DNA of 64,000 bases. Source: Dehalococcoidia bacterium. Lineage in GTDB: Bacteria; Chloroflexota; Dehalococcoidia; SpSt-223. The position numbers and the translations under genes were made by a program. Below are positions 15,312-41,307 of this stretch, in pieces; position 1 is the first letter of the stretch, and every line of letters begins with the position of its first letter. The stretch is taken from the NCBI GenBank assembly GCA_025054935.1, contig JANWZD010000001.1:389008-453007 (forward strand). The letters run 5' to 3'. The notes under the pieces were generated by a model. That model was not told the origin of the DNA. It did no database searches and saw only the letters and a program-made list of their open reading frames with translations.

Positions 15312-17729
15312 CTAGCGCAGCCAGCCGTTCAGATAGCCCGCCACAATCTCTTCTTCGTCGAGCCCCAGCAGTTCGCGTAGGAGGCGCTCGGTATCTTCCC
15401 CGAGGAGGGGAGCCGGGCGGGAGACCCGACCCGGCGTCGACGTCAACCGGACGGGCGGTCCATCGGCGAGATGGACACCCACTTCGTGGTGCTCAATGCG
15501 GACATAGTGGCCGATGGAGCGCATCTGCGGGTCTTCCTCGACAAGATCGCGATGACTCTGAACCGGCCCCGCCGGGATGCCGAGCTGCTGCAGGCGCGCG
15601 GCGGCGGCACGCGCTGGCTGGCGGCGCGTCCAGCGCGCGACGATCTGATCGAGCGCATCCTCATTCGCTTTGCGCGCGGCAAGAGAGGAAAAGCGCGGGT
15701 CGGTCGCGAGGTGGGGCTGCTCCATCGCCGCCGCGAGAGCGGCAAACTGCGCGTCGCTTTGGCACGCAATGGCAATCCAAGCATCATCGCCGAGCGCGGG
15801 GTAAGCGCCATGGGGCGCTGCATCGGGCGAGCGGTTGGCGCAGGGGCCAGCAACGACGCCGTTGACGGCGTAGTCCATCGCCTCGACGCCGACCCAGCAG
15901 ACCGTGCTCTCATGCTGCGCGAGATCTATCGTCTGCCCGACGCCGGTCCTCCGACGATAGTGCAAAGCGGCAAGGACGGCGACCGCGAGGTGGTACGGGT
16001 TGCAGGAGTAGTCTGGATGCGCGATGCCAGCCCCAGCCGGGGGGTCGTCGGGAAAGCCGGTAATGGCGTGATGGCCGGCAGCTGCGCCGATAGTGTAGCC
16101 AAGGCCGATGAAATGCTGGCGCGGTCCGGTGCGCCCCATCGTCGAGGCGCGGGCGATGATCAGGTCGGGACGAAGCGCGCGCAGCCGGGCGAGGGTCAAC
16201 CCCCATTTGGGATAGGGATCGACGCCGAAGTTATCGACGAGGACGTCGGCGGTCTGAATGAACCGCTCGAGCAGCCGGACTGCCTCCGGGTGCGTCAGGT
16301 CGAGGACGACCGACGCCTTCCCGGGATTGAGATTGTTCCACATGCCGGAGGCGTTCAGGCTATCGTTGCCGGGCGGCCGCGCCGTCGGCAGGCGGCGGGA
16401 GCTGTCTGGGCGCGTTGCGCTCTCGATCCGGAGCACCTCTGCTCCGAAGAGCGCCATGAGGCGGGTCGCTAAGGGCGCAGCCGCAACCCAAGAGAGATCG
16501 ATCACCCGAACTCCTTCAAGCGGCAGCCGGTCGCGGCGCGCCGGCGGCGCCGAACGGGGAGCACGCGGCCGCGGGAGCCAGCCCTCGCCGCTGTGCTCGC
16601 CCGCCAAAGGAGGGCGGCGGAAAATCCGCCACGGCGTGGCGCTAAGACGGAACGGCGGGCCGGGATAAGTGATGTCGCGCTCGATCTCAGGATGAGGGAC
16701 ACGCTGCCAAAAAGCGCGCGCCGCCAGCTGCGGGTCGGCGAACAGCTCATCGATGCGCTGAACCGGAGCGACGCCCACCCGCGCCTCTTGACCAAGCCGC
16801 CAAATTTCATCCCGGGTCATCGCAGCGCACAGCGCTTCGCATGCGCGTTCTATTGTCTGAGCATGAGCCGCCCGGTAGTCAGCGGAGTTCCAGGCCGGGT
16901 CGGCAAGCTCCTCCGAAAGAAGCCCGGCACGCTCGAGCAGGCGACGAAACGACTGCCAGCGGTTGCCGATCGAAACGACCACCCAGCCGTCCCGGCAACG
17001 GAAGAGCTGGCGCATGCGGAGGTAGTTCTCGACGCCGAGGCGAGGGCGCACCCACCGCTCGAAATCCCAGTAGGGGAGGGCATTCTCGGCGTCGATCGCG
17101 ACGGCAACTTGACCGATGACCTCAACAAGCTGGCCCCGCCCCGAGTGGTCGCGGGCAGCCAGCCCGAGCAGCGCGCCGCAGGCCGCAAGGACCCCCGTCT
17201 GATATTCGGCTTGATTGCCGCCCAATTGGCTCGGCGGCCTGGTCGGCAGGCCCGCCAGAAACATCAACCCGCCCAGGGCTTGGAGAATGAGGTCAGACGC
17301 CTGCCAGCGCTGGTAGGGGCCGGTCGTTCCAAAGGGGGTCGCCAGAACATACACCAGTCTCGGGTTGCGGCGGGCAAGCGCGGCATAGTCAATCCCGAGC
17401 AGCGCGCGCTCGGCGGGAAGAGCGGTATCGACGACAACGTCGGCATCGCGGGCGAGGGCGCGCAGGCGGCGGCAGCCCTCTTCCTGCGTGAGGTCGATGA
17501 GTTCCGACCGCTTTGAGGTATTGAAATACCAGAAGGCGAGACTTTCCCCCTGGGCCGGACCGGCCCGCACAAACGGCGGCCGCCGACGGGCAGGGTCGCC
17601 CCCCGGGGGCTCGAGACGGATGACATCCGCCCCAAGATCGGCAAGCAGTTTCGTGCCGTACCACGCGAGAGGACCGGCGAGGTCGAGCACCCGGACATCG
17701 CGAAGCGGCGCAGGAAGCAGATCACGCAC
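15312..17729 (-). CDS. Fused two-domain class III CoA-transferase (CaiB/BaiF type)
   Basis: 805 aa from GTG 17729, about twice the usual 400. Domain 1 (about 1-395): RVLDLAGPLAWYGTKLLADLG, with Asp146 in QASDLILQALGG at the catalytic Asp position of formyl-CoA transferase. Domain 2 (about 400-805): GVRVIDLSWVAAAPLATRLM, in which the matching position (FIGLGYTIGAAAG) holds Gly. One active and one inactive half resembles heterodimeric transferases such as BbsE/BbsF fused into one chain. The enzyme moves CoA between acids; the acid is not identifiable. A 39-bp direct repeat duplicates the start region, so an alternative GTG lies at 17804. Confidence 0.87.
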   Translation of the reverse strand: MRDLLPAPLRDVRVLDLAGPLAWYGTKLLADLGADVIRLEPPGGDPARRRPPFVRAGPAQGESLAFWYFNTSKRSELIDLTQEEGCRRLRALARDADVVVDTALPAERALLGIDYAALARRNPRLVYVLATPFGTTGPYQRWQASDLILQALGGLMFLAGLPTRPPSQLGGNQAEYQTGVLAACGALLGLAARDHSGRGQLVEVIGQVAVAIDAENALPYWDFERWVRPRLGVENYLRMRQLFRCRDGWVVVSIGNRWQSFRRLLERAGLLSEELADPAWNSADYRAAHAQTIERACEALCAAMTRDEIWRLGQEARVGVAPVQRIDELFADPQLAARAFWQRVPHPEIERDITYPGPPFRLSATPWRIFRRPPLAGEHSGEGWLPRPRAPRSAPPARRDRLPLEGVRVIDLSWVAAAPLATRLMALFGAEVLRIESATRPDSSRRLPTARPPGNDSLNASGMWNNLNPGKASVVLDLTHPEAVRLLERFIQTADVLVDNFGVDPYPKWGLTLARLRALRPDLIIARASTMGRTGPRQHFIGLGYTIGAAAGHHAITGFPDDPPAGAGIAHPDYSCNPYHLAVAVLAALHYRRRTGVGQTIDLAQHESTVCWVGVEAMDYAVNGVVAGPCANRSPDAAPHGAYPALGDDAWIAIACQSDAQFAALAAAMEQPHLATDPRFSSLAARKANEDALDQIVARWTRRQPARAAAARLQQLGIPAGPVQSHRDLVEEDPQMRSIGHYVRIEHHEVGVHLADGPPVRLTSTPGRVSRPAPLLGEDTERLLRELLGLDEEEIVAGYLNGWLR

Positions 17730-17805
17730 ATATGCGGGCGAAGCTCGCGATCTTTGAGGTCGCGAGCGGACATCGCGAAGCGGCGCAGGAAGCAGATCAC
17801 GCACA
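17692..17805. repeat. 39-bp direct repeat duplicating a start codon region, with hairpin between
   Basis: Positions 17692-17730 and 17767-17805 are identical over 39 bases, 75 bp (25 codons) apart. Between them an 8-bp inverted repeat, GCTCGCGA (17743-17750) and TCGCGAGC (17760-17767), can form a hairpin. On the minus strand each copy encodes the CoA-transferase N-terminus (RDLLPAPLRDVR) with its own GTG (17804 and 17729). Confidence 0.9.
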
Positions 17806-17877
17806 GGTGCCAGCCGGGGCAGTCAGCCTCCTCGTCTCGGATAAAGCATGGAGTATCCAATCGGCAGGAGGATACTC

Positions 17878-33887: not shown

Positions 33888-35411
33888 TCAGGCAAGGCGG
33901 ATGCGGAAGAAGGGCGGCAGCGTCAGCACCCGGACGCGGAGGCGCTGGCCGACGGTAAAGCGGACCGCGAGGTTGCCGCCGCCGACTGTAGCGGCGTCGA
34001 GCACTGCCGGCTCGCTCCGGCCGACATCCACCACTAAGCGCGTCGGCTCGATCGCGATGATCTCCGCGTCGAGGATCATCCCTACTTTGATGGCGCGGTC
34101 GGCCAGCCGCGGGATCGGCGGAGGAGGCGCAGCAGCCTGCTCCGGCGCGGCAGCAGAGGGGGGACGGAGCAATGCCTGCAGCGCGGCAAAGGGCGTTGCC
34201 GGCTCCGGGCGGGCCGGTTCCCGCGGGGGCGCCGCGGCCGCCACCGGTGGACGCTCGACGACGGCAAAGGCGTCATCCTCCCAGTCGACCGCAATCGCCC
34301 TCGAGGTCGGGAGCGGCGCTTCCAGCGGGCTGAGGGTGACGAGCGTCCACCCCAGCGGCAGCGCCGGACCGCCCCGCCGCTCGACCAGCTTGCGCGTCGC
34401 CGGAAAGACGCTCTGCTGGGTGCGTCCCCGCCCTTGCCCCCGCTGGTCAGGGCGGGAGCGCTCGGTTGGCCGCCGGCGATCGTCGCGCTCTCCGAAATAG
34501 TCGGCTCGGATTTGCGCCCAATCGGGGCTAGCGGTCAAGGCGAGACCAAGCGACTTCGAGTTCCAGCCTGCTCCCCAGCCGAGGTGGAGGAGAATCACGA
34601 GGTCGGAAGCATTCTCGGCAGCGGCGAGGAGGGCGTCGTAGAAGGCGACCAGCGCGCCTGCGCCCGCCGCGGCGGCATACTCCCGCTCCGCGCGAGCGCG
34701 CCGCACCCCTTCTTCGCGCGCTAACGCGATTGCCTCGACGATCGCCTCGCGGTTTGGGGGAGACTCGAGCCGCGGATGCTCAAGAGCGAGCCAAGCCTCG
34801 TCGATGACGAGGGAGCCGACGAAGCGGCCCCCGGGGGCGACCGCTTCGACAGCAAGCCGGTCCGAGAGCGGCACCAGCGCTCGCGCCTCGAGCCCATAGG
34901 TCCGAACGGCTGCGAGCGTCAGGCGGGTTTCGTCGCTCGGCCGCGCGTCAGCAACGCGGAGAGCGCGGAACCCGCTCGCGCGCGGCTGTGCCCCAAACAG
35001 GCGCCGCTCAAGCGGCTGGGCAGCAAATCGGGCGGCCGGCGCAAGCTCGTCCTTTTTGATCAGCCGCCCCGCCACCCGCTCCCGCTCGAGCAGGGCGGCG
35101 GCAATCAGCGTATGGAAGGCTCCCTTCAGCGCGCTGCCCGGCAGCAGCGGCTGTCCGAAGGCATCCTTGGCGACGGGGCGCACCGGGCCGGGCGGGGTTG
35201 TTCCGCCGAACGGGAGGCGATAGAGCGGCTCCGGCATGCCGAGCAGCCGCCCAGCGCCATCGCGCGGTCCGCTCTCGGGGCCATAGACGAGCAGCGCGCC
35301 GTCATGAACGACATAATCCAACTCCGGCAGCAGCGGAAGGCTCCCGCTGCCGACAGCAAGCGGGGCGACGACGTCAACAACAACCCGAAAGGAGCGCGCC
35401 TGACCGGTCAC
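33888..35411 (-). CDS. csm5: Csm5 (type III-A RAMP) fused to a C-terminal S1/OB-like domain
   Basis: 507 aa; ordinary Csm5 is about 350-400. Csm5 part (1 to about 390): LPELDYVVHDGALLVY near the N-terminus, then PLLPGSALKGAFHTLIAAALL and LLHLGWGAGWNSKSLGLALT, ending FPATRKLVERRGGPALPLGW. Csm5 caps the crRNA 3' part of the complex. A Pro/Ala-rich linker (about 392-435) leads to residues 441-507: IKVGMILDAEIIAIEPTRLV, then DVGRSEPAVL and VGQRLRVRVL. These have the strand pattern and G-x-V-x-G spacing of an S1 RNA-binding domain. Start overlaps csm4 by four bases. Confidence 0.85.
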   Translation of the reverse strand: MTGQARSFRVVVDVVAPLAVGSGSLPLLPELDYVVHDGALLVYGPESGPRDGAGRLLGMPEPLYRLPFGGTTPPGPVRPVAKDAFGQPLLPGSALKGAFHTLIAAALLERERVAGRLIKKDELAPAARFAAQPLERRLFGAQPRASGFRALRVADARPSDETRLTLAAVRTYGLEARALVPLSDRLAVEAVAPGGRFVGSLVIDEAWLALEHPRLESPPNREAIVEAIALAREEGVRRARAEREYAAAAGAGALVAFYDALLAAAENASDLVILLHLGWGAGWNSKSLGLALTASPDWAQIRADYFGERDDRRRPTERSRPDQRGQGRGRTQQSVFPATRKLVERRGGPALPLGWTLVTLSPLEAPLPTSRAIAVDWEDDAFAVVERPPVAAAAPPREPARPEPATPFAALQALLRPPSAAAPEQAAAPPPPIPRLADRAIKVGMILDAEIIAIEPTRLVVDVGRSEPAVLDAATVGGGNLAVRFTVGQRLRVRVLTLPPFFRIRLA

Positions 35412-36337
35412 GCTGCCCCCGCCATGCCGATCGGAAGCGCCCAGCCAGCGCGGAGAACTTCATGCTCCCGGAAGCCCGCGGGGGTCACATCAGCCATGCG
35501 CCCCACGGGAGGACGGCCGTCTACCGGGGCGAGGACACTTCCCGCTGCTATCATGCGGACTGTGCGATGACGAACCGTTCCCGCCGCGCTCGCCGTCCAG
35601 CCGCTTCGATCCTCAAGCTGATACTGGGCCGGCGGATTAAGGACGCCGCCCTCCAGCTCGCGGACCGAGGGAAGATAGAGCGAAAGAGTGCAGTAGCGCG
35701 CCGGCTGGGATGGCTCACGAATTTCGATTGAGCGGACGTCGAGGTCAAACTGGCCTGCTCCCCAGCTGCGCCGGCCGCCGAGACCAGTATCGCCGAGAGA
35801 GCGCAGCGCCGCGATGACATCATCGCGCCAGCCCGCATCGATCTGCGCGATCACCGCCAAACCGCAGCCAGGGGCAAAGCGGACGAGACGGTCGGCGAAG
35901 GGCTCGACCCCTCCCGCGCCGAGGCGGGCGCGGCGGACCTCTTCAACCGCCCAGACCGGCCCCTCCGGCAGCGGCTCGGTCTTGCTGGCGCGCAAGCGTC
36001 CCTCTTGAAGCTCGCGGATTTCGCCCCCCTCTTCTCCCGCCGCCATGGCCTCGAACAGCCGCTGCGACACCCAGCCCGTTCCCCCCGGCGCGGGGAAAAA
36101 GAGAGTATCGCCGACAAAGGGCAGCGCGCTCGAGAAGCGGAGCGGCGGAGCGTCGCCCGCGCTCCGGATGATGCGGAGGAAGCTCGCAAGCCGCGCCGGC
36201 CCGAACAATTCGCGCAGGGAGAGACAGAGCGCGCTGAAGAGGGTGTCCGAGGCGACGACAGGAGACGGCTCGCCGCTGGCATCGGGGCCGAAGTGGAACG
36301 GGCCGCGCGGAATGAGACGAAACAGCGTTGCGTTCAC
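35408..36337 (-). CDS. csm4: Csm4 (type III-A Cas5-like RAMP)
   Basis: 309 aa. N-terminal RAMP ferredoxin fold: LFRLIPRGPFHFGPDASGE, then SDTLFSALCLSLRELFG, the standard SDTLFSAL element of Csm4. The glycine-rich RAMP loop is DTGLGGRRSWGAGQFDLD (about residue 188). Csm4 binds the crRNA 5' handle and Cas10 at the base of the complex. Its start overlaps the csm3 end by four bases and its end overlaps csm5 likewise, so the genes are translationally coupled. Confidence 0.9.
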   Translation of the reverse strand: MNATLFRLIPRGPFHFGPDASGEPSPVVASDTLFSALCLSLRELFGPARLASFLRIIRSAGDAPPLRFSSALPFVGDTLFFPAPGGTGWVSQRLFEAMAAGEEGGEIRELQEGRLRASKTEPLPEGPVWAVEEVRRARLGAGGVEPFADRLVRFAPGCGLAVIAQIDAGWRDDVIAALRSLGDTGLGGRRSWGAGQFDLDVRSIEIREPSQPARYCTLSLYLPSVRELEGGVLNPPAQYQLEDRSGWTASAAGTVRHRTVRMIAAGSVLAPVDGRPPVGRMADVTPAGFREHEVLRAGWALPIGMAGAA

Positions 36338-37143
36338 GCCGGGAGCGCCAAGGCTGACCGGATGGCGTCGGTCAGTTCTTCGAGGTTGTCGAGGAGCGCA
36401 GCAACATCAGGATAGCGGCGGGGCGAGAAGCCCGCGCCTACCTCTCCGCGGTAACTGGCCCGCGAGCGAACCGTGATGTCGAAGTCGACGAACCGCACCT
36501 TGCCGCTGCCGCGCGAGCCGTGCCCGCCGAGATAGCTGTCTTCGACGAGCTGCAGACCGCGGACCACCCAGCCGAAGTCGGCGAGGTCACGCGCAGAGTA
36601 GACGCTGTACACCAGCTCAAGCGGCGCAAGGCGGGCGCCGGCGGGCAGCCGCTCGATCTGGCGCGGGGCCGGCTCTGCTGTCACGCGGTCGACCGATGCC
36701 TCGGACTTCACTTCAGTGTACGGGAGGTCGGTGCGAGCTCGTTTCAGCGCTGCGGCGCTTTCTGGGGCAAGAAAGACATCGCGCACGATCAGGCGAGCAG
36801 CGCCGTCAACTGCGAAGGCGCGCGTCCCGGGCACGCCATAAAGCCGACCGATGGGGTTGGCGTCATACTCTTCGCGGCTCATCGGCACATAGACCTGCAC
36901 GCCGCCCCGGCCGGAAGTGTTGGGCAGCAGACCGAGCAGCCGCTCCGTTTCGGCGCGCATCTTCCCGCGCAGGGATGAGCCAGGGAGATAGGGCTGGCCT
37001 GAGAGCGGGTCACGCACCACCGTGAACTCGAGGCCAGGGATCGCCCCATTCGTGCCTGCGCCGATATGGAGCCCGCTCTCGAGCTGAACGGCCGCGCGAA
37101 CGAGGATGCGCCCGTAGAGCGTCGTTACCGCTCCGTCGGCCAT
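36334..37143 (-). CDS. csm3: Csm3 (type III-A Cas7 backbone RAMP) with catalytic Asp replaced by Glu
   Basis: 269 aa. Motifs: LESGLHIGAGTNGAIPG, VVRDPLSGQPYLPGSSLRGK, MRAETERLL, and the glycine-rich SYLGGHGSRGSGKVRF. Several Csm3 copies form the backbone along the crRNA and cut the bound target RNA every six bases. The active residue of characterised Csm3 proteins is the Asp of I-G-(G/A)-I-D-x-P-V-x-R-D (D32 in Staphylococcus epidermidis). Here the same stretch is IPGLEFTVVRD, with Glu39. Target cutting may therefore be weak or lost. Confidence 0.93.
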   Translation of the reverse strand: MADGAVTTLYGRILVRAAVQLESGLHIGAGTNGAIPGLEFTVVRDPLSGQPYLPGSSLRGKMRAETERLLGLLPNTSGRGGVQVYVPMSREEYDANPIGRLYGVPGTRAFAVDGAARLIVRDVFLAPESAAALKRARTDLPYTEVKSEASVDRVTAEPAPRQIERLPAGARLAPLELVYSVYSARDLADFGWVVRGLQLVEDSYLGGHGSRGSGKVRFVDFDITVRSRASYRGEVGAGFSPRRYPDVAALLDNLEELTDAIRSALALPA

Positions 37144-37158
37144 GACCTTCCTCCTAGG

Positions 37159-37659
37159 CTAGCGCCCGCTGAATTGCGGGCCAGCATAGAAATATGCCAT
37201 CAACGCTTCCACGAAGTGGACCAGATGGTCGAAGCGGTCGCGGTCGTTGCCGACAAGGTCGACCGCCGGCGCCAGCGTTTGGTAGAGGTCGGTGACGCCG
37301 CGCCCGACACCCGCCGCCCGCCCGGCGAGATAGGCGAGCCGCGGCTTCACCAAAGGGAGCGCGCGTCCTTCGTCTGTCGGCCAGTCAAGCTCGATCCGCC
37401 GCAGCTCGCCCCAAAGAACGCGCAGCGCGCCGCTTGTGGCCTGGCGCGCCTCCAGCCGCTCACCGGCAAGAACGCGCGCGACCCGCTGCGCCTCCTGAAC
37501 AATGACCCCAGCATTGCCGTCAACAATGATGGCGCGGAGGTCGGCCGGGTCGATCGGGCGCAGCGGCTCGGCAGGACGGCGTCCTTCGCCGCGCGGAGCT
37601 GCGCTTGGCCGCGGCCCGCCGCGGGGGGGACCGCTCCGTCGTTCGGGCGCTTCAGTCAT
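37159..37659 (-). CDS. csm2: Csm2 (type III-A small subunit) with basic N-terminal tail
   Basis: 166 aa from ATG 37659. The core has the helical Csm2 pattern: LRVLWGELRRIELD, PLVKPRLAYLAGRAAG and the C-terminal DRFDHLVHFVEALMAYFYAG. The first 38 residues are an extra Arg/Pro/Gly-rich tail, unusual for Csm2 and likely nucleic-acid-binding. Csm2 lines the inner belly of the complex. The start overlaps the cas10 stop by eight bases. Confidence 0.88.
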   Translation of the reverse strand: MTEAPERRSGPPRGGPRPSAAPRGEGRRPAEPLRPIDPADLRAIIVDGNAGVIVQEAQRVARVLAGERLEARQATSGALRVLWGELRRIELDWPTDEGRALPLVKPRLAYLAGRAAGVGRGVTDLYQTLAPAVDLVGNDRDRFDHLVHFVEALMAYFYAGPQFSGR

Positions 37660-39883
37660 GGCGTGCCTCCGCCTGCGTCCTGCGCAGCGCCTCTTCCGCC
37701 CAGCGGGCGGCGAGCGCGAGCCGCGCGGCGCTCTCCGGCCGCGCGACATCATTGGTGAGATTCACGAAATCGACCTCCGGAAGCTGCCCCTGATCGGCAA
37801 ATTGACGTAACGCAGCAGTGGCGCGCCACGTCCAGCGGCCGCGGCCGGGTGCGCCTTCTCCTGCGCGCACCACGCGGAGGAGGCGTGGGGAGACCCCGCG
37901 CTTCACGATAAGGTCCGTCAAGCGGTTAAACCGCTCCCACACCGGACGAAACTCGTCCCAGCCGAGCGTTGCGCCGAAGAAGGTGAGCGCGTTCTTATCC
38001 CGACCGACCCGCGCAGGGCCCCCGCCGCGTTGGCGGCGCTTTGCGCCGCGCGCCAGCGCCGCGGCAACGGCACGGTGCTGGGTGTCGGCGCTCCCGAGAC
38101 CGTCGCCGACCGCTGCCGACAGGCGGATGGCCGGGTGATCGCCCGTCAGCGCACTTAACCCTTGGGCGAGCGCAAAGCCGATGCGCGGCAGTTCATCCGG
38201 CCGCCCGAGACAGGTGATCCCGTCGGCCGACCAGTGAACGATCGTGACCGAGCTCGCGGCGTAGCGACCGGCAGCTTCCACGCCGACCGCATCGAGAAAA
38301 TAGCGGAGGAGCCGGCCGCCATCAACGAGGCGAGCGAGCGGCGCTGCAGCGTGACCCGTCGTCCGCAGCTGGCGCGAAAAATCGAGATCGATCTCCAGCA
38401 GGGCGACGTCGGCCGTGCCGTTGCTCGGGCGGAGAGGAGGACGAGAGACGATCGCGATCGGCGCCCGCTGGCGGACTGCCCACGCGCGGACGGCTGGGTC
38501 ATGCGGACCAACGACGCCGAGCCGCTCGAGCCGCGCCCACCGGACATGCTCCGCGAGGTCTTCGCTCGGCGGCTCGGCAAGAAGCGTGAGCCGCCGGCCG
38601 AATGCGGCCAGCGCCCGCTGGGCGGGAGAAGCCGGCACGCCATCGGGATCGGGAAGCGCTTCAATAAGGAGAAAGGCAGCATTCTCGAGCTGATCGCCGA
38701 GGTGGGCGAGACTGGCGGCCTCCTCGTCCTCATCGGGGTCGCGCGCCGAGAACAATCGGTTCAGTTCGACAGCGCCGAGAGCGCCGTAGGGGCGCGCTGC
38801 CGCTTGCTGGAGCAGGCCTTCCAAGCGCTCCATCGCGACACCGATAGCGCCGCCAACTTCGCGTCCCGTGATGGGGGTCGCGGCGATGCTGGCGATGAAC
38901 GCGGCGCCGCCGTCGAGCAAGCGGCGGTCGAGCTCCCGCGCGACCGCCGGCAGGCGTTCCTGTGCCGAGAGCGGAAGGAGGAGGAGCAGACGCCCGGGGT
39001 CGACCGTAAGCCGCGCGACTGGAGAGGCATGAAACGACTCGATCAGCCAATCGGCGAGAACATCGGTCAAAACCGCCTCAAGCAGCGAGCGGGCCTGAAG
39101 GGCACGGAACGTCAGTCCCGCATTCGGATGGCTGAGGCAGCGGCGAAGCCGCACCCCGAGTGCGAGCGCGACCGGGGCGTCGAGCGCTGCGCTCGAGCCG
39201 GATGCCAGTGCTTCAAGGCGCTCATCGGCAGCCTCATCCGCAGCGAGGCAGGCGGCGAGGGCGGCAGTGACGTGAAGGTGCGCGGCGAGCGAGATATCGT
39301 TTGCCGGTTCTCGCGCAGGCGCCGGCACGAGGATGCAGGTGCGCCAGATCAGGTCGAGCAATCCGCTGAGATAGGCAGCGAAGTCGGGACTGGAAGCGAC
39401 GGTATGCTCGGTGGCGACCATCTCCGCAAGGGCAAGGAGACGGCGGCGTACCTCGTCCCGCTCCATAGGAGCAGGGCGGGGGGTCAGCCCCTCGAGGTCG
39501 TGCGGAAGCGGCCCGACGGGGAAGAAGGTCGGCGGGCGAGCGGGAGCGTTCTCCGGAAGGCCGAGGGGAAGAAGGGGGAAAGGAGAACGGCGCTGCAGGA
39601 GAGGCCGCCCGCTCTCCTCATCGTCAGGCCCGCCGGCCGCGAGGCGGTCCGCAGCGGCGACAAGGCGGCTTAAGCGATCGTCCGGCCGGTGATGGGCGAG
39701 GATCGCGGTCGAAGCGGCGCGAAACGGAGCGGGAGCGCGCTCCGCAACGAAAGCGGCCGCTAACGGCGCATGGCCCGTCGTCGGCCCTGATGCATCAGCG
39801 GCGCGCTGAGCGAGCACGCCGATATCGTGCAGGAGGGCGGCGACCACCGCCGTTTGGAGCAGTGAGCCCGGGTGACCTTGCAC
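37652..39883 (-). CDS. cas10: Cas10/Csm1 with HD motif but degenerate GGDD cyclase motif
   Basis: 743 aa from GTG 39883. The N-terminal HD nuclease domain starts VVAALLHDIGVLAQRA and has a later LAHHRPDD. The first palm domain lies around TVDPGRLLLLLPLSAQERLP. The second palm, where Cas10 carries GGDD for cyclic oligoadenylate synthesis, reads IVHWSADGITCLGRPDELP: residues 552-555 are S-A-D-G. No zinc-finger Cys cluster is visible. The C-terminal helical domain (WERFNRLTDLIVKRGVS...) is as in Csm1. It heads the operon, downstream of an extended -10 box. ssDNA cleavage by HD is possible; cyclase activity is doubtful. Confidence 0.9.
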   Translation of the reverse strand: MQGHPGSLLQTAVVAALLHDIGVLAQRAADASGPTTGHAPLAAAFVAERAPAPFRAASTAILAHHRPDDRLSRLVAAADRLAAGGPDDEESGRPLLQRRSPFPLLPLGLPENAPARPPTFFPVGPLPHDLEGLTPRPAPMERDEVRRRLLALAEMVATEHTVASSPDFAAYLSGLLDLIWRTCILVPAPAREPANDISLAAHLHVTAALAACLAADEAADERLEALASGSSAALDAPVALALGVRLRRCLSHPNAGLTFRALQARSLLEAVLTDVLADWLIESFHASPVARLTVDPGRLLLLLPLSAQERLPAVARELDRRLLDGGAAFIASIAATPITGREVGGAIGVAMERLEGLLQQAAARPYGALGAVELNRLFSARDPDEDEEAASLAHLGDQLENAAFLLIEALPDPDGVPASPAQRALAAFGRRLTLLAEPPSEDLAEHVRWARLERLGVVGPHDPAVRAWAVRQRAPIAIVSRPPLRPSNGTADVALLEIDLDFSRQLRTTGHAAAPLARLVDGGRLLRYFLDAVGVEAAGRYAASSVTIVHWSADGITCLGRPDELPRIGFALAQGLSALTGDHPAIRLSAAVGDGLGSADTQHRAVAAALARGAKRRQRGGGPARVGRDKNALTFFGATLGWDEFRPVWERFNRLTDLIVKRGVSPRLLRVVRAGEGAPGRGRWTWRATAALRQFADQGQLPEVDFVNLTNDVARPESAARLALAARWAEEALRRTQAEARHD

Positions 39884-40870: not shown

Positions 40871-41197
40871 TTATGACTCTGCCGGCTTCGTCGCTCGGCT
40901 GCGCTTGAGGGTCTCGCCGCCCTTCTTGCCGATGGTCGAGTAGTAGTCGGGACCGTGGCGCTCCTTGACGGCATAGCCGCCCTTTCGCCCGATGCGCGCG
41001 TAATAGTCGGTCCCGTGCTTCTCCTTCACCGCCTCGCCGCCCTTTTTACCAATCTCAGCGTAGAACTCCGGGCCGCGCTCGGTCGCCACGACGCGTCCGC
41101 CCTTCTTCCCAATGCTGGAGAAGAACGCCGGTCCGTAGCGCTCCTTGACGGTCTTGCCCCCCTTCTTGCCGGCTTCCTTTACGGTCATGTCCGTCAT
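40871..41197 (-). CDS. KGG-repeat stress protein (con-10 / GsiB-like)
   Basis: 108 aa, hydrophilic, with five copies of an I-G-x-K-G-G-x-x-V/x-K-E-R/K-x-G unit of about 20 residues, e.g. KKGGKTVKERYGPAFFSSIG. The motif is found in general-stress and conidiation proteins that are unfolded and desiccation- or starvation-induced. Start ATG 41197 follows a strong aaaggagt site. It has a near-consensus promoter with an inverted repeat over the -35 and a clear terminator, so it is a separate, probably strongly expressed unit. Confidence 0.88.
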   Translation of the reverse strand: MTDMTVKEAGKKGGKTVKERYGPAFFSSIGKKGGRVVATERGPEFYAEIGKKGGEAVKEKHGTDYYARIGRKGGYAVKERHGPDYYSTIGKKGGETLKRSRATKPAES

Positions 41198-41277
41198 CGG
41201 ACGACTCCTTTCTCCCCAATCGACAGCCACGTGTCCGGACTCGCCGCCCTGCCAGTAGCCACCGCACTCTGCAACCA

Positions 41278-41307
41278 ACTATACGAGCAGCTCCGAGAAA
41301 CTGTCAA
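41278..41307 (-). promoter_or_regulatory. Near-consensus promoter of the KGG-protein gene
   Basis: On the minus strand TTGACA (41307-41302), 18-base spacer, TATAGT (41283-41278); leader about 70 bases. One of the best -35/-10 pairs in the window. Confidence 0.75.

Follow-up and report, generated by a model that had tools for sequence, protein, structure and literature searches.

A rare glutamate at the catalytic aspartate position of Csm3 in a type III-A CRISPR locus from a genus with an altered Cas10 palm

The Csm complex of Lactobacillus delbrueckii subsp. bulgaricus (LdCsm) is a type III-A effector that works through the HD nuclease only and makes no cyclic oligoadenylate (cOA) (PMC7214462). 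Its Csm3 variant D34A is greatly impaired in RNA cutting and raised in ssDNase activity, H20A and D106A impair the DNase, and the linker residue E415 contributes to control of the DNase (PMC7214462). In the Csm complex of S. thermophilus, RNA cutting ends the DNase state, and a D33A exchange in Csm3 served to block ssRNA cleavage (PMC6461802). In type III systems, the catalytic Asp acts by coordinating the Mg2+ on which cleavage depends (PMC11026444). RNase-dead Cmr4 kills S. islandicus as long as either HD or palm is active, and this lethality required genomic CRISPR arrays as well as matching cell RNAs (PMC9368842).

The locus compared here with these systems lies in a window of 64,000 nucleotides (i.e., the whole stretch of DNA that was analyzed) from a Chloroflexota genome of 3.57 Mb in 93 contigs (G000, the query genome). 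A type III-A csm operon of five genes occupies positions 33888-39883 on the minus strand, in the order cas10-csm2-csm3-csm4-csm5. Two other genomes of the same genus (G001 and G002) were used for comparison; judged by this locus, the nearest named relative of the query genome is the Dehalococcoidia MAG KatS3mg060 (Chloroflexota), whose sequence is identical to that of G002 over the stretch tested. The first gene, cas10/csm1 (37652..39883, minus strand, 743 aa; TIGR02578, Pfam HD), encodes an HD nuclease and a degenerate palm. It is followed on the same strand by csm2 (37159..37752, 197 aa; TIGR01870, 38 bits with a cut-off of 30.6), csm3 (36334..37143, 269 aa; TIGR02582, 173.4 bits with a cut-off of 90), csm4 (35408..36337, 309 aa; TIGR01903, 171.3 bits with a cut-off of 55) and csm5 (33888..35411, 507 aa; TIGR01899, 59.9 bits with a cut-off of 38.3). 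With csm2, csm3, csm4 and csm5 all above their NCBIfam cut-offs beside cas10, the gene content assigns the locus to subtype III-A. The subtypes with an inactive palm (III-C, III-F, III-G and III-H), whose gene sets we take to differ from that of the query locus, were considered as well, but the gene content is that of III-A. Cas10 scores 143 bits with TIGR02578, which is under the cut-off of 170. However, its predicted structure (pLDDT 85) superimposes on 6ifn_A, the Csm1 chain of a solved type III-A complex, with a Z of 32.4 and an rmsd of 2.8 over 651 residues, and the modeled fold thus identifies it as the Cas10/Csm1 large subunit. For the Csm3 model (pLDDT 82.6), all of the 50 Foldseek matches listed are Csm complexes.

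Several peculiarities of the neighboring genes were observed. The 3' end of cas10 overlaps csm2 by about 100 bases (37652-37752), with a similar overlap in G002, and Csm2 carries an N-terminal extension of about 90 residues ahead of the Csm2 domain. The Csm5 profile match stops at aa 344 of 507, leaving a C-terminal extension (window 33888-34400), and the last 170 aa gave zero matches in Pfam. By eye, the extension may resemble an S1/OB-type domain. It is present in G001 and also in G002, there in another frame; csm5 of G002 is seemingly split by a frame break (L070:11315-11331) whose two halves align in different frames, which could be a MAG error.

A sequence-only reading of the locus had noted an altered Cas10 palm and suggested HD-dependent DNA cutting as what is left; in the alignments, the palm is indeed altered and the HD residues are intact. 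Palm 2 of the query Cas10 has no GGDD-like motif of the kind found in cOA-signaling systems: residues 552-555 at this position (38219..38230, minus strand) read SADG, and in the model they sit on a strand-turn-strand hairpin (E547-551/E555-560), as expected of the palm motif. The corresponding residues are TTDG in G002 and STDS in G001; all three genomes have retained the first Asp and lost the second. Thus, GGDD is missing in 3/3 genus members, whereas it is present in 42/42 other Cas10 rows (a Cas10 match was found at 47 of the 68 loci and none at 21; in place of L001, L002, L059 and L060, more complete copies of these genes were used, and L011, a protein of 503 aa with GGDD, was left out). 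In nine named GGDD variants of likely active cyclases, the fourth residue is always acidic (PMC11229360), unlike the fourth residue of SADG. The DxD pair (D499, D501) is retained in the query and in G002, and its first Asp is gone in G001.

The HD nuclease residues H19 and D20 (39824..39829, minus strand), H38, H64, H65 and D79 are all retained in the query Cas10. Among 20 Cas10 rows, H19, D20, H38 and H64 are invariant, and H65 and D79 are conserved in at least 90%; G001, whose contig ends inside cas10, lies outside this HD comparison. Neither the query nor G002 has the CxxC pair of the linker, and the part of G001 that can be seen lacks it as well; it is present in 37 of the 42 other Cas10 rows. 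Considering the role of the linker residue E415 in LdCsm, HD activation could be impaired too, and the missing pair speaks against simply taking the DNase to be under normal regulation.

Codon 39 of csm3 is GAG (Glu) at positions 37029-37027 (37027..37029, minus strand), and bases 37032-37024 encode L38-E39-F40. This Glu takes the place of the catalytic Asp in the I-x-G-[IVL]-D loop, as the sequence-only reading had it. A phmmer comparison with solved structures placed E39 opposite Asp in T. onnurineus Csm3 (6muu) and opposite Ala at the equivalent position in the 6o7h and 6mur chains of the same protein. Judging from the motif, we assume that it also corresponds to D33 of S. thermophilus Csm3. 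The catalytic column of the Csm3 alignment holds Asp in 63 of 67 rows, Glu in two (the query and L052) and a gap in two truncated rows, the alignment being made from the 68 loci without L001 (the query itself) and L068, with one Asp locus counted twice (L002 and L059). Furthermore, of 400 Chloroflexota genomes scanned for the motif, 39 carry it with Asp and two with Glu (the query genome and G396), none of them having both. Taken as given, the sequence therefore contains a real and rare Asp-to-Glu change that is no artefact of alignment. The other conserved residues checked, H26, D122, E144, K146, E148, R161 and R165, are all retained in the query Csm3, H26 and D122 presumably being the counterparts of LdCsm H20 and D106. 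Compared with most other Csm3 proteins, the query and G002 have a catalytic loop shortened by one residue, and G001 by two, so that loop geometry differs in this genus.

As only a single C/G difference separates this codon from the GAC of the sister genomes, and as the query species is known from one sequence in an assembly of 93 contigs, the GAG may be a base-call or assembly error for a true GAC. We regard such an error as very improbable: Glu occurs independently in two other genomes, hence the allele exists in nature, and the remaining frames of the operon are intact.

These two genomes also bear on the question of whether the Glu and the altered palm belong together. The sequence-only reading had linked them, a coupling for which the comparison gives no support. 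G001 and G002 share the altered palm with the query, yet their Csm3 codon is GAC (Asp); in the Thermoflexus-type loci L052 (Thermoflexus sp. 629H.11) and L092 (G396), Csm3 Glu occurs with intact HD and GGDD. In a tree of 65 Csm3 proteins, L052 is joined with L092 (support 100/79), and the query is grouped with G002 and G001 (100/100). These well-supported branches force at least two separate Asp-to-Glu changes. A common origin of Glu39 and palm loss in one event was rejected, since the sisters in the genus keep Asp and the tree needs separate changes. With the palm lost in 3/3 genus genomes and Asp kept in two of them, palm loss is the older change, and Glu is private to the query species. On sequence grounds, the query Glu is thus a rare, species-private variant of the catalytic site in a genus whose III-A system appears to have lost its cyclase earlier. 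In the Thermoflexus-type pair, the Glu codon is GAA in L052 and GAG in L092 at a nucleotide identity of 93.7%, which suggests that Glu probably persisted through some divergence. G335, which bears the genus label of G396, matches the rest of the motif but has Asp. In Thermoflexus-type Csm3 proteins (L092, L052, L050, L048, L047), Arg replaces the His that most others have in the G-L-H-I-G motif.

Between the query and G002, dN/dS is 0.126 for csm3, 0.116 for csm4, 0.16 for cas10, 0.206 for csm2 and 0.269 for csm5, values that are rough because dS of 0.8 to 1.8 brings the synonymous sites near saturation. These ratios point to purifying selection on the csm genes. In csm3, the query branch carries 21 polarized amino-acid changes and the G002 branch 22. 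Decay of the whole operon was considered and rejected on dN/dS and on these branch counts. At the 46 Csm3 columns conserved at >=95%, the query departs at seven and the two sister genomes at four and five, a small surplus that may point to relaxed constraint.

Our favored, although tentative, reading is that the query locus encodes an LdCsm-like, HD-only type III-A effector in which Csm3 with Glu39 probably cuts target RNA more slowly, its activity not being lost. Target RNA bound on the Csm3/Csm2 filament would switch on the single-strand DNase of the Cas10 HD domain, the dead cyclase would make no cOA signal, and target-RNA cutting by Csm3 would serve as the off-switch. The Glu39 carboxylate is one methylene longer than that of Asp and would most likely still hold the metal, though less well placed, and the poorer placement would slow target-RNA cleavage rather than abolish it and so extend the DNase window. 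Since Glu keeps a carboxylate able to bind Mg2+ in a shifted geometry, slowed cutting is the likeliest effect. This bears on the earlier proposal that two of three type III activities are lost or changed: the altered palm (SADG) accords with it, but a loss of RNA cleavage does not follow, as the carboxylate and the other conserved Csm3 residues checked are kept. HD-dependent DNA cutting, which the same proposal left as the remaining output, is plausible by analogy, given the intact HD residues and the precedent of LdCsm, in which this HD-only mode without cOA was already described.

Alternatively, Glu39 may abolish target-RNA cleavage altogether, making the complex an HD-only effector with neither RNase nor cyclase activity, which would remain on until the target RNA dissociates of its own accord. 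Asp-to-Ala exchanges do abolish or greatly impair cleavage in type III systems (PMC11026444, PMC7214462), and Asp is kept in 39 of the 41 motif-positive Chloroflexota genomes. However, these assays replaced Asp by Ala, not by Glu; a search, which was not exhaustive, found no published assay of Asp-to-Glu at the Csm3 catalytic site or its Cas7 equivalent. Moreover, two related Thermoflexus-type genomes keep Glu together with HD and GGDD, a setting in which an inactive RNase would be expected to carry a cost (PMC9368842). Indeed, the lethality of RNase-dead Cmr4 implies that selection should oppose a full loss of Csm3 cutting while HD is active, although the arrays and the matching cell RNAs behind that lethality may be absent here. 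We therefore consider complete loss possible but rather unlikely.

Conversely, Glu39 could be neutral, binding the metal as well as Asp does and cutting target RNA at the normal rate. The change is conservative, Glu arose separately at least twice, and the query branch shows no faster change (21 versus 22 polarized changes). Nevertheless, Asp fills 63 of the 65 rows that have a residue in this column, a preference that speaks for selection usually acting against Glu, and the shorter catalytic loop, by one or two residues in the genus, alters the geometry around it; neutrality thus seems distinctly unlikely. A bolder extension of slowed cutting is that Asp-to-Glu is a recurrent natural tuning allele that lengthens the DNase-on time and that it compensates in the query for the older loss of cOA through a longer-lived HD output. 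We consider this extension unlikely.

No CRISPR array was found within the window or in 18 kb around the csm operon of G002, and no cas1 match was found on the contig of the window. The cas1 loci of the query genome lie elsewhere, on contigs C19, C31 and C25, and their ORFs read as one I-C and two I-E systems. With no array in the window and cas1 loci elsewhere, the crRNA is probably supplied in trans. The Cas6 model TIGR01877 gave no match in the query genome or G001. The Csx1-HEPN and Csm6 models (PF09455, TIGR02672) each matched in 0/3 genus genomes, which, as far as these two effector families go, fits a dead cyclase. On contig C5 of G002 (L087, L068), another csm3-like gene lies close to cas1, to a weak Cas6 match and to two CRISPR arrays, in what may be a further type III locus. 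Elsewhere in the window, 40871-41278 encodes a small protein with 60-base repeats rich in G-K-K-G-G units, and 17692-17810 holds two 44-base copies, 95% alike and 75 bases apart, which, being two only, form no array.

Type III immunity shuts itself off through Csm3 cutting, and natural Glu alleles in maintained operons would permit a direct test of whether the cleavage rate is tuned in nature or simply on/off. The genus provides a matched set for this purpose: the dead palm is common to all, while two species carry Asp and the third Glu. Given a predicted active palm in about 97% of Cas10 proteins (PMC12669027), the III-A system with its palm dead throughout the genus is arguably of greater use than the Glu allele.

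With LdCsm, the query shares the III-A gene set, an altered palm motif and the palm 2 DxD (D499 and D501 in the query), and an HD DNase as output without cOA is predicted for it. The palm motif is QGDD in LdCsm and SADG in the query, the Csm3 catalytic residue D34 in LdCsm and Glu39 in the query, and LdCsm has its own array of 16 spacers, whereas none was found in the query window (PMC7214462). The S. thermophilus III-A Csm complex, where RNA cutting switches off the DNase, is alike in Csm3 fold and residue position but has Asp in Csm3 and needs its palm residues for Csm6 activation (PMC6461802). Subtypes III-C, III-F, III-G and III-H have likewise lost the palm motif, HD often being kept (PMC11229360, PMC12669027). 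The Thermoflexus-type loci L052 and L092 have Glu at the same Csm3 position and an HD as the query does, but differ in keeping the Cas10 GGDD and in having Arg for His at Csm3 position 26. The locus is thus a modest variant of a known defense system, whose HD-only mode without cOA has already been characterized in LdCsm.
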